NCBI GenBank assembly: GCA_029194535.1
Contig: JARFXR010000002.1
Coordinates: 1-64,000 of the forward strand
Source of the DNA: Nitrospira sp.
GTDB taxonomy: Bacteria; Nitrospirota; Nitrospiria; Nitrospirales; Nitrospiraceae
Reading direction: 5' to 3'
DNA length: 64,000 bases
The position numbers and the translations under genes are program-made. Under the pieces are notes generated by a model. The model worked only from the letters and a program-made list of their open reading frames with translations. It did no database searches and was not told where the DNA came from. Position 1 is the stretch's first letter; the number at the start of each line of letters is the position of its first letter. This document shows, in pieces, positions 16,944 to 19,729 of the stretch.

Positions 16944-17402
16944 TTACACTCCTGTCAGGATGAAATATCCACTGTTGTAGAAGCAATGCAGCACGATGGA
17001 CGGATACGTGCTCTGGAAACGATCCCGCAAGAATCCAAACATCAAAGACGGAATCAGGACAGACAACGCCCAGAGGGGCGGATGAGTGAACCAATGCCCG
17101 GCCACGAACAGCACTGACGTGGCCCAGTTCGCCAACGTCACGTCATAAATCGCACGCCGCCCCCATGAACATTGGGTGAGTCGCCCCTGAATCAATCCAC
17201 GGAAGAGAAGTTCTTCAACTAACGGCAGCCAGAGCGCCACCGTCAGAAACGGCAAAGACCAGAGACGAGACCAGTGGAGGGGCTGAAGAGACGTGGTGAG
17301 GGCCAAGGCCGCCCAAACGACCGGCCCTCCAGCCGCCGCCAGCAGAAAGCCGGCGTCCCGATGAAAAGGGGGACAACGATCAAGTCCGAGAAGATTGAGC
17401 AC
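16944..17402 (-). CDS. Glutamic-type intramembrane protease, MrtJ-like (CPBP family)
   Basis: A 152-residue membrane protein of the CAAX-protease/bacteriocin-processing (CPBP) family. The catalytic motif is EELLFRG (EExxxR) in one helix, followed by GHW and, near the C-terminus, an HCFYN motif; these supply the Glu and His residues typical of the fold. The GTG start at 17,402 is chosen because AGAGAG lies just upstream; longer in-frame versions would run through the hairpin and into the protease gene. It lies 80 bases downstream of a subtilisin-like protease with a GlyGly-Cys C-terminal sorting signal, on the same strand. Such pairs are known for JDVT-CTERM proteins, whose dedicated protease is called MrtJ. 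The assignment to that exact subfamily is inference. Confidence 0.75.
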   Translation of the reverse strand: MLNLLGLDRCPPFHRDAGFLLAAAGGPVVWAALALTTSLQPLHWSRLWSLPFLTVALWLPLVEELLFRGLIQGRLTQCSWGRRAIYDVTLANWATSVLFVAGHWFTHPPLWALSVLIPSLMFGFLRDRFQSTYPSIVLHCFYNSGYFILTGV

Positions 17403-17433
17403 AACTCTCTGGGATCCTGTTTGTCGAGCGGCG

Positions 17434-17470
17434 CCAGACGTTCCTTTGGCCGGGCCAAAGGAACGTCTGG
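17434..17470. repeat. Perfect 16-bp inverted repeat between the sorting-signal protease genes
   Basis: CCAGACGTTCCTTTGG at 17,434-17,449 is repeated in inverted form at 17,455-17,470 with a five-base centre. The RNA would form a very stable hairpin in the gap between the subtilisin-like gene and the intramembrane protease gene. No T-run follows on either strand, so it is not a classical terminator; it may reduce read-through or protect the upstream message. Confidence 0.85.
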
Positions 17471-17482
17471 GCGCTCGGACAC

Positions 17483-19729
17483 TTACTTCCTGCCGGTCCT
17501 GTTCTTGAACCGTTGAGCCCAGAGACCAACAGCGAGAAGGGCCAACATCGGCAACATCATGTCCATCCTGCCGTCTGCACTCAATGTGCACCCGCCGCCC
17601 CCGCCGTCACCGGGAGGAGCGGGAGACGCTGCAGGCGCGGGAGAGACAGAAGGACCGGAAGAATCGGCTTGAACAGTAATGTTGACGGTACCCTGAGCGC
17701 TGTCGGCATCGTTGTCTCGCGCAAAATAAGCTAGGCTGTAGTTGCCGGCCGGAGTGGCTGAAGGCCAGCTGAATTGCCCTGCGGCACTCAACGTTGACCC
17801 AGCGGGCAGCGGCGGCACAGCAACGAAAGTCGGCGTATCGCCGTCGGCGTCTGTGGCACCCACCGTGAAGTCTAAGGCACTTCCTTGGGACACAGTCTGG
17901 GATCCAACCGGTGTCAGCACGGGCGGAGAGTTCACCCTCACCGTCGCGGTTGCCTGCCCGGTCAGCCCGCTGCTGTCCGTCGCGGTCAGCCGAAAGGTGA
18001 AGGTGCCGGTTGCCGGCGCCGTAAAGGACGCATTGGCGGTATTGCTGTTGGCAATGGTACCGACCGAGCCGCCGGTCACTTGAGCCCACTGGTAAGAGGT
18101 GATGCTTTTTCCGGCAGCCGCCGTCGCCATCCCCGCCAGCGAAACCGTACCGGCCGGTGCCACAACTTGCGATGGGGTCGTGATCGTCACCGCCGGAGGC
18201 AACGCACTCGCGTTTAACTTATCCAGCGCCGCGCGCGCATCGAGGAGCCCCGCGCCGCACTTTCCGACGACGCTACCGCCTGACGCGCACGACGAGCCGG
18301 CTGGAAATGCCCGAGCGGACGATTGCAAGACCGAGAGAATCTGCGCACGAGTCAGCGAAGGTTGCACAGACCAGAGGAGCGCCGCTACCCCTGAGACGTG
18401 GGGAGTCGAGCTACTGGTTCCGGAGCCGTTAATCGACGTATCCCCCCCTGGGCTGGCCGCCGGACTCGTGGTGCCCGTGTTGTAGATGGTATAGGTGCCC
18501 AGCCCGTTGGACGTGACGAAATCCGTACAGTTGTTCCCCGTTGTCAGCTTCCCACACAATCCGCCAGGGGCAGTGATCGCCACCTGCCCGCTGACATTGG
18601 AGTAATAGGCCAGATCGCCATCGATCGCGTTCGCCGCCACGCCGATCACCCCGGCGCAGTTCGCCGGTTCATCGATCGCGGTGGCATCTCCGTTGTTCCC
18701 CGTTGCGGACACGATGATGGCCCCCGTGCTAATCACGTCCGTCACGGCGTCCTGAAGAGCCTGACTGCACGCATTGTGGTCGCTGATGCTGATATTGAGA
18801 ACCTTTGCGGGGTTCGCATTGGCGGGCACCCCGGCCACCGCCAACCCCGCCGCCCAGCGCATCCCGTCCGCCATGTCGGACGTGACGGCCCCGCATTTCC
18901 CGCTCACCCTCACCGGAAGAATCGTCACATTCGGCGCCACCCCGGTGCCGAAGAGGCCATTATTCATTTTTGCCGCGATGATCCCGGTCACGCCCGTGCC
19001 GTGCCACACCGAGTCCCTGGCGAGTGATCCCGGTCCGCATTCGTTCGCCGCGACCCAATTCCCGGCATCTTGCGGATTGCTATCGCGGCCATCCCCATCG
19101 TTGGCGCGCGCGGGATCGGTGATGAAATCATAGCCCTGCAGCAACGACGCCGGCTGATCGGCGTGCGGCACATACCCGGTATCCACCACCGCGACGACGA
19201 CGGACGCGCTGCCCTTGGTGACGTCCCAGGCCGTCGGCAGGTTGGCGCCTCCGGTGGCGTCCGCAGGCGCGAAATAGTGCCACTGACTGCCATAATTGGG
19301 ATCGGTCGGCGTCGTCTGCGGATGCATGGACCGGTCCGGCTCGACATAGTGCAGGCTTGGGTCGTTGTGCATCAGTCGCGCGGCAATGGCCCGCGCTTCG
19401 GACAGGGTCACCGACTTGTGCAGTTTGAGCACATACGCTCCCCCGGACATGCGACGGACCACGGAGAGCGGCACGCCCGCCTTTTTGGTGAGCCCGCCGG
19501 CATCGAACGCGTCCAACTCGCTCGCCACCTTCGAGCCGGCTTGTGGTTTCACGATCAGACTCGAAATCATCGTCTCGTCCGGCGGAATCGTCGCTTGATT
19601 CAAGACAGATCTCGAGGGCAATTTGGGAGGCTCCGCTGTCGTGACGGAAGCTACGACCGCGACAACAACCATACATGCGGTCATGGCCAGACCCATCCCC
19701 ACCGTCCGACGCCTCAAAGTAGCCAACAT
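17483..19729 (-). CDS. Secreted subtilisin-like (S8) protease with C-terminal sorting signal
   Basis: A 748-residue exported serine protease. Signal peptide about 1-32, an inhibitor-I9-like propeptide (about 55-132), then the S8 domain with Asp183 (VVDTG), His243 (WHGTGV), Asn345 (ATGNNG) and Ser439 (GTSSSTPH). Residues about 515-700 form two Ig/PKD- and cadherin-like beta domains. The C-terminus has a Pro/Ser-rich linker, GDGGGGGC, a short spacer, a hydrophobic helix (MMLPMLALLAVGLW) and a basic end. This tripartite tail is the layout of GlyGly- or Cys-type sorting signals such as JDVT-CTERM. AGGGGG lies before the ATG. The neighbouring intramembrane protease probably cuts the tail, leaving the enzyme attached at the cell surface. 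Confidence 0.93.
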   Translation of the reverse strand: MLATLRRRTVGMGLAMTACMVVVAVVASVTTAEPPKLPSRSVLNQATIPPDETMISSLIVKPQAGSKVASELDAFDAGGLTKKAGVPLSVVRRMSGGAYVLKLHKSVTLSEARAIAARLMHNDPSLHYVEPDRSMHPQTTPTDPNYGSQWHYFAPADATGGANLPTAWDVTKGSASVVVAVVDTGYVPHADQPASLLQGYDFITDPARANDGDGRDSNPQDAGNWVAANECGPGSLARDSVWHGTGVTGIIAAKMNNGLFGTGVAPNVTILPVRVSGKCGAVTSDMADGMRWAAGLAVAGVPANANPAKVLNISISDHNACSQALQDAVTDVISTGAIIVSATGNNGDATAIDEPANCAGVIGVAANAIDGDLAYYSNVSGQVAITAPGGLCGKLTTGNNCTDFVTSNGLGTYTIYNTGTTSPAASPGGDTSINGSGTSSSTPHVSGVAALLWSVQPSLTRAQILSVLQSSARAFPAGSSCASGGSVVGKCGAGLLDARAALDKLNASALPPAVTITTPSQVVAPAGTVSLAGMATAAAGKSITSYQWAQVTGGSVGTIANSNTANASFTAPATGTFTFRLTATDSSGLTGQATATVRVNSPPVLTPVGSQTVSQGSALDFTVGATDADGDTPTFVAVPPLPAGSTLSAAGQFSWPSATPAGNYSLAYFARDNDADSAQGTVNITVQADSSGPSVSPAPAASPAPPGDGGGGGCTLSADGRMDMMLPMLALLAVGLWAQRFKNRTGRK

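Follow-up and report, generated by a model that had tools for sequence, protein, structure and literature searches.

A JDVT-CTERM subtilisin-like protease and its predicted MrtJ sorting enzyme encoded side by side in a Nitrospira genome

The window analysed here, a stretch of 64,000 nucleotides from a Nitrospira sp., encodes a subtilisin-like serine protease with a Cys-containing C-terminal tail, followed on the same strand, after a gap of 80 bp, by a small intramembrane protease. On sequence grounds the pair is a JDVT-CTERM substrate together with its sorting enzyme, MrtJ, and so a further member of a system that has already been described. The best explanation as a whole, to which we give a probability of roughly 85%, is that the protease is exported, lipidated on the tail Cys, cut free of its tail by MrtJ and left attached to the cell surface. 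What the analysis shows is that both proteins belong to their families, that they occur together and are encoded next to each other, that the tail and the catalytic residues are conserved and that the MrtJ model has a CPBP fold. The features concerned are as follows.

17483..19729, minus strand: S8 (subtilisin-like) serine protease, 748 residues, the predicted substrate (translation, Pfam and NCBIfam matches)
17486..17605, minus strand: JDVT-CTERM sorting tail, residues 709-748, with GGGGGC, a spacer containing an invariant Asp, a hydrophobic helix starting from LP and a basic end (NF033191 and an alignment of 42 proteins)
17588..17590, minus strand: codon of the invariant Cys714, predicted site of modification and cleavage (Cys kept in 42 of 42 tailed proteins)
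17432..17473, minus strand: long, almost perfect hairpin lying between the stop codon of the protease and the start codon of MrtJ, with no T run after it (RNA fold z = -5.4)
16944..17402, minus strand: MrtJ, glutamic-type (CPBP) intramembrane protease, 152 residues, GTG start, the predicted tail-processing enzyme (NF033192)

The original prediction had placed an S8 protease with a Gly-rich, Cys-containing tail, a helix and a basic end exactly at these coordinates, followed by a same-strand gene for a 152-residue EExxxR protease of CPBP type, and had proposed JDVT-CTERM and MrtJ as the model for the two. Translation and domain matches bear out the first gene, its motifs and a PF02517 match of 62 bits the second, and it is exactly these two curated NCBIfam models that pass their cut-offs. 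The larger protein consists of a signal-like N-terminal segment taken as a signal peptide, a prodomain region, an S8 domain at residues 176-473 (PF00082, 138 bits), two Ig/PKD-like domains (PKD-like and Big_9/He_PIG; matches PF22352 and PF17963) and the JDVT-CTERM tail. Its C-terminus reads ...PGDGGGGGCTLSADGRMDMMLPMLALLAVGLWAQRFKNRTGRK, and the letters of the tail are GDGGGGGCTLSADGRMDMMLPMLALLAVGLWAQRFKNRTGRK.

Residues 709-735 of the protease match NF033191 (JDVT-CTERM) with 31.9 bits against a curated cut-off of 27, so the objection that the tail might fit no sorting-signal model fails. The same scan gave no match at E<=10 to models of PEP-CTERM type, GlyGly-CTERM or MYXO-CTERM, and in control genomes no tail was matched at E<=0.01. 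In the window protein 34 residues lie beyond the Cys, the hydrophobic 15-mer begins 10 residues past it and the net charge after the helix is +5. An alignment of the 42 tailed proteins has a mean column identity of 27%, and in it full conservation is confined to G711, G712, G713, C714 and D723 in the numbering of the window protein, all of them in the tail. The most hydrophobic 15-residue stretch begins 8-11 residues past the Cys (10 in 34 of the 42), and the C-terminal end is net positive in every one. Peptidase_S8 is matched in at least 35 of these proteins, a lower bound because some of the sequences are partial. An InlB B-repeat domain is found in 35, and two of the 42 are glucose/sorbosone-dehydrogenase-like.

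The 152-residue protein matches NF033192 (MrtJ) with 102.7 bits, the curated cut-off being 75, and falls far below the respective cut-offs of the other myxosortase models in the NCBIfam scan. It carries the motifs EExxxR (E63, E64, R68), FxxxH (F99, H103) and HxxxN (H139, N143), all seven residues of which are invariant in an alignment of 33 MrtJ sequences. The reading frame stays open upstream as far as 17591; because the alignments of its relatives begin at about the residue encoded at 17402, the shorter start is the more likely one. The AlphaFold2 model (pLDDT 92.9) is most similar to SpdC (6u0o; Z 13.3, rmsd 3.0 over 144 residues) and MmRce1 (4cad; Z 9.2, rmsd 3.2 over 138 residues), scores that helical bundles may attain from the arrangement of helices alone, and the next structure in the comparison reached Z 4.5. 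Both top matches belong to the CPBP family, in agreement with the sequence motifs, and MrtJ as modelled has the CPBP fold. A sequence-profile search of the PDB with MrtJ returned nothing at E<=0.1.

A CPBP protein of another kind, about 500-540 residues long, occurs in most of the family and also in this genome (C2:351234, 37 bits). We rejected this protein of ~520 residues as the true partner of the tail, as most genomes have it, usually in the absence of tails, and its score lies well under the MrtJ cut-off. The common CPBP gene is a different one, and the objection that the neighbour of the protease is simply that common protein does not hold.

To place the pair in context we searched 147 genomes of the same family, probably the Nitrospiraceae, in which MrtJ passed the cut-off in 32 and a JDVT tail in 30. 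Both were present in 29 genomes, MrtJ only in three, the tail only in one and neither in 114 (Fisher p = 3e-26, uncorrected for phylogeny); the four discordant genomes possibly reflect incomplete assembly or decay. For 38 of 44 tails (43 over the cut-off and one at 26.4 bits) a MrtJ gene follows within 1 kb on the same strand. Given that the curated cut-offs are passed, that the control genomes are negative and that the gene order recurs at this frequency, we do not consider the pairing to be due to chance. Across the phylum the tail passes the cut-off in 26 of 296 genomes, mostly from this family and also from other families of the class. At four loci (L076, L078, L079 and L080) a MrtJ over the cut-off has no adjoining JDVT gene. 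The MrtJ closest to that of the window (81% over 95 residues; L094:3043-3484, G070:C9) appears split over two frames.

Tail-bearing genomes encode one to three JDVT proteins, and several depart from one-to-one pairing. Extra unlinked tails occur in G098, G089 and G134, and in G113 two tailed proteins precede a single MrtJ. Two genomes hold tandem arrays in which a tailed S8 protease and MrtJ are repeated (G092:C15:83266-104544 and G058:C14:17417-22011); in these arrays some MrtJ copies are truncated or broken by stops and the tailed proteases are still open. Such exceptions fit the use of one enzyme for multiple substrates.

The genome from which the window derives is itself a case of this kind. 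The assembly (3.98 Mb, 5 contigs, 99.88% complete) contains, over the cut-offs, one MrtJ and two JDVT tails. The second tailed protein (C1:2169809-2171902; L067:9807-11903) is unlinked to the pair and is also an S8 protease, of another subtype, with InlB-like repeats and the ending GGGGCTLNSSSTDVVLPALLMLSLAFWVRRLRPQTKK. There is no MrtJ near its gene, and no relative at E<=1e-60 was found in any of six congeners. A putative lipoprotein gene (429 residues, opposite strand) lies beside it. Because the genome has one MrtJ and a second, unlinked tailed protease, the simplest reading is that the single MrtJ probably serves both and acts also in trans. For this genome a strict one-to-one relation of enzyme and substrate is too narrow.

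We also evaluated whether the pair behaves as a unit. In the congener G001 the genes flanking the pair are neighbours separated by about 360 bp, with no trace of the pair, and the gene before it, a molybdopterin oxidoreductase, is 92% identical in the two genomes. The nearest relatives of the protease (62-65% identical) and of MrtJ (71-81%) belong to other genera and other neighbourhoods. From these comparisons the difference to G001 could be due to gain as a two-gene unit or to repeated loss, of which gain seems the more likely, and the pair is probably a movable two-gene unit that recurs in the family.

A natural fusion joins the two components in one relative. On contig C39 of G075 (L075:1184-4084), known from one metagenome bin, a JDVT-tailed glucose/sorbosone-dehydrogenase-like protein is fused in frame to MrtJ, giving 967 residues. 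The JDVT tail of the fusion scores 20.4 bits in a whole-protein scan, below the cut-off, and 27.0 bits in the genome search, over it, and the MrtJ part scores 91.8 bits. Relative to an unfused homologue in G098 (L093), a deletion of ~135 bp has taken out the stop codon, the spacer and the initial residues of MrtJ. The cytoplasmic end of the tail is thereby linked to the beginning of MrtJ, an arrangement in keeping with the expected topology. A model of the fused protein built with MrtJ rows only gave a pLDDT of about 45-67 in the tail, and because this confidence is low we draw no conclusion from the position of the Cys in it. When the fused tail was aligned together with MrtJ and substrate tails, the helices came out misaligned, and these alignments were dropped. 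We consider it an even bet that in this family MrtJ is a mobile sorting enzyme acting in trans, such that one enzyme would serve several unlinked surface proteases, the two genes would move together as a cassette, MrtJ copies would degenerate within arrays whose tailed proteases are retained, and the enzyme would have been joined to its own substrate in one lineage.

The hairpin between the two genes (17432-17473) has perfect arms that occur nowhere else in the genome, which rules it out as a mobile repeat. It may tune the relative amounts of the two gene products or stabilise the upstream mRNA.

These data allow us to propose how the protease may be processed. Export would proceed by Sec, directed by the signal peptide at the N-terminus, and the C-terminal helix would keep the protein in the inner membrane with its basic end facing the cytoplasm. 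Cys714, which would sit at the periplasmic edge, would probably be lipidated, Lgt being the leading candidate, and MrtJ would then cut on the helix side of Cys714 and leave the protease attached through its lipid. A type II secretion system would most likely bring the folded protease to the cell surface, and the second, unlinked S8 protease would probably be processed by the same MrtJ. Lipidation, cut site, the type II step and surface location are proposed by analogy with the MYXO-CTERM/MrtX system, and we infer them from there. TraA of Myxococcus xanthus is cleaved at its MYXO-CTERM by MrtX, for which conserved Cys residues of the tail are required, and an mrtX mutant is defective in surface display, which is reduced (PMC11980579). 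Lipidation by an Lgt-like enzyme is, for MYXO-CTERM too, a hypothesis, put forward by the same authors (PMC11980579).

Lgt is encoded in the genome; the favoured model needs it, and its presence proves nothing. A GspD-type secretin is also encoded; its score, like those of almost all family members, stays under the strict cut-off of its model. A strong secretin match is found in 30 of 30 JDVT genomes versus 55 of 117 others, an association that is weak evidence for type II secretion, as it runs along genus boundaries and may be phylogenetic.

Cleavage could also take place without prior lipidation, so that MrtJ would release a soluble extracellular protease and the tail would serve for release rather than anchoring. 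MrtX was able to cleave its substrate in E. coli, in the absence of the cognate system, and its authors mention cleavage of an unmodified tail, which they think unlikely; VesB from V. cholerae is released in part once another rhomboid has processed it (PMC11980579). Against this stand the invariant residues, which are restricted to the tail (GGG, Cys and Asp), and the lowered surface display upon mrtX deletion in M. xanthus (PMC11980579). As a membrane-adjacent Cys is so strictly kept, a chemical role for it is the best explanation, and we regard lipid-free release as unlikely.

Processing by another sorting enzyme of the genome is far less probable. An EpsH-type exosortase is encoded, as is a rhomboid protein that stays below the rhombosortase cut-off (best score in the genome 36.2 bits, cut-off 84). 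Since the tail models of exosortase and rhombosortase are unmatched at E<=10, we rejected both as the processing enzyme, and it is MrtJ that tracks the tail across genomes; the objection that such an enzyme recognises this tail fails accordingly. Least credible of all is a plain membrane anchor beside an unrelated CPBP gene, which takes some credit from processing in this organism being argued by analogy, and is contradicted by paired curated models whose cut-offs both proteins pass, by adjacency that persists despite sporadic distribution and differing surroundings, by co-occurrence and by the natural fusion.

Sorting by MrtJ with lipid attachment, our preferred reading, would make the pair a compact, naturally isolated version of a Cys-dependent CPBP sorting pathway with one enzyme and one or two substrates. 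The natural fusion, together with substrates that have nothing but GGGC and D in common, should ease testing of the Cys-modifying enzyme and the cut position. A further outcome is a set of likely surface proteases for Nitrospira-type bacteria.

The pair resembles the known JDVT-CTERM/MrtJ system (NF033191/NF033192) in passing both cut-offs and in the gene order, with the substrate preceding MrtJ on one strand. That system was described as a conserved neighbourhood of MrtJ and one JDVT-CTERM protein, sporadic in beta- and gamma-proteobacteria (PMC11980579); the Nitrospira-type occurrence falls outside the groups named there, and in contrast to the two-gene form there is a second, unlinked substrate here, with arrays and a fusion in relatives. 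MrtX with the MYXO-CTERM of TraA, the experimental model for the mechanism, shares a CPBP protease with EExxxR and HxxxN and a tail with an invariant Cys, helix and basic end, whereas the MrtJ of the window scores 44.5 against the MrtX cut-off of 180, and the 35 MYXO-CTERM proteins of M. xanthus (PMC11980579) contrast with the one to three JDVT proteins per genome here. MmRce1 and SpdC align with the predicted MrtJ fold over 138-144 residues but at 15% identity, MrtJ being shorter (152 versus about 250 residues), and SpdC acts as the partner of SagB and is not a sorting enzyme. Rhombosortase and the GlyGly-CTERM of VesB from Vibrio cholerae offer a parallel in a surface serine protease with a Gly-rich, tripartite C-terminal tail that an intramembrane protease removes, although the enzyme family is unrelated and the tail of the window protease is marked by its invariant Cys.
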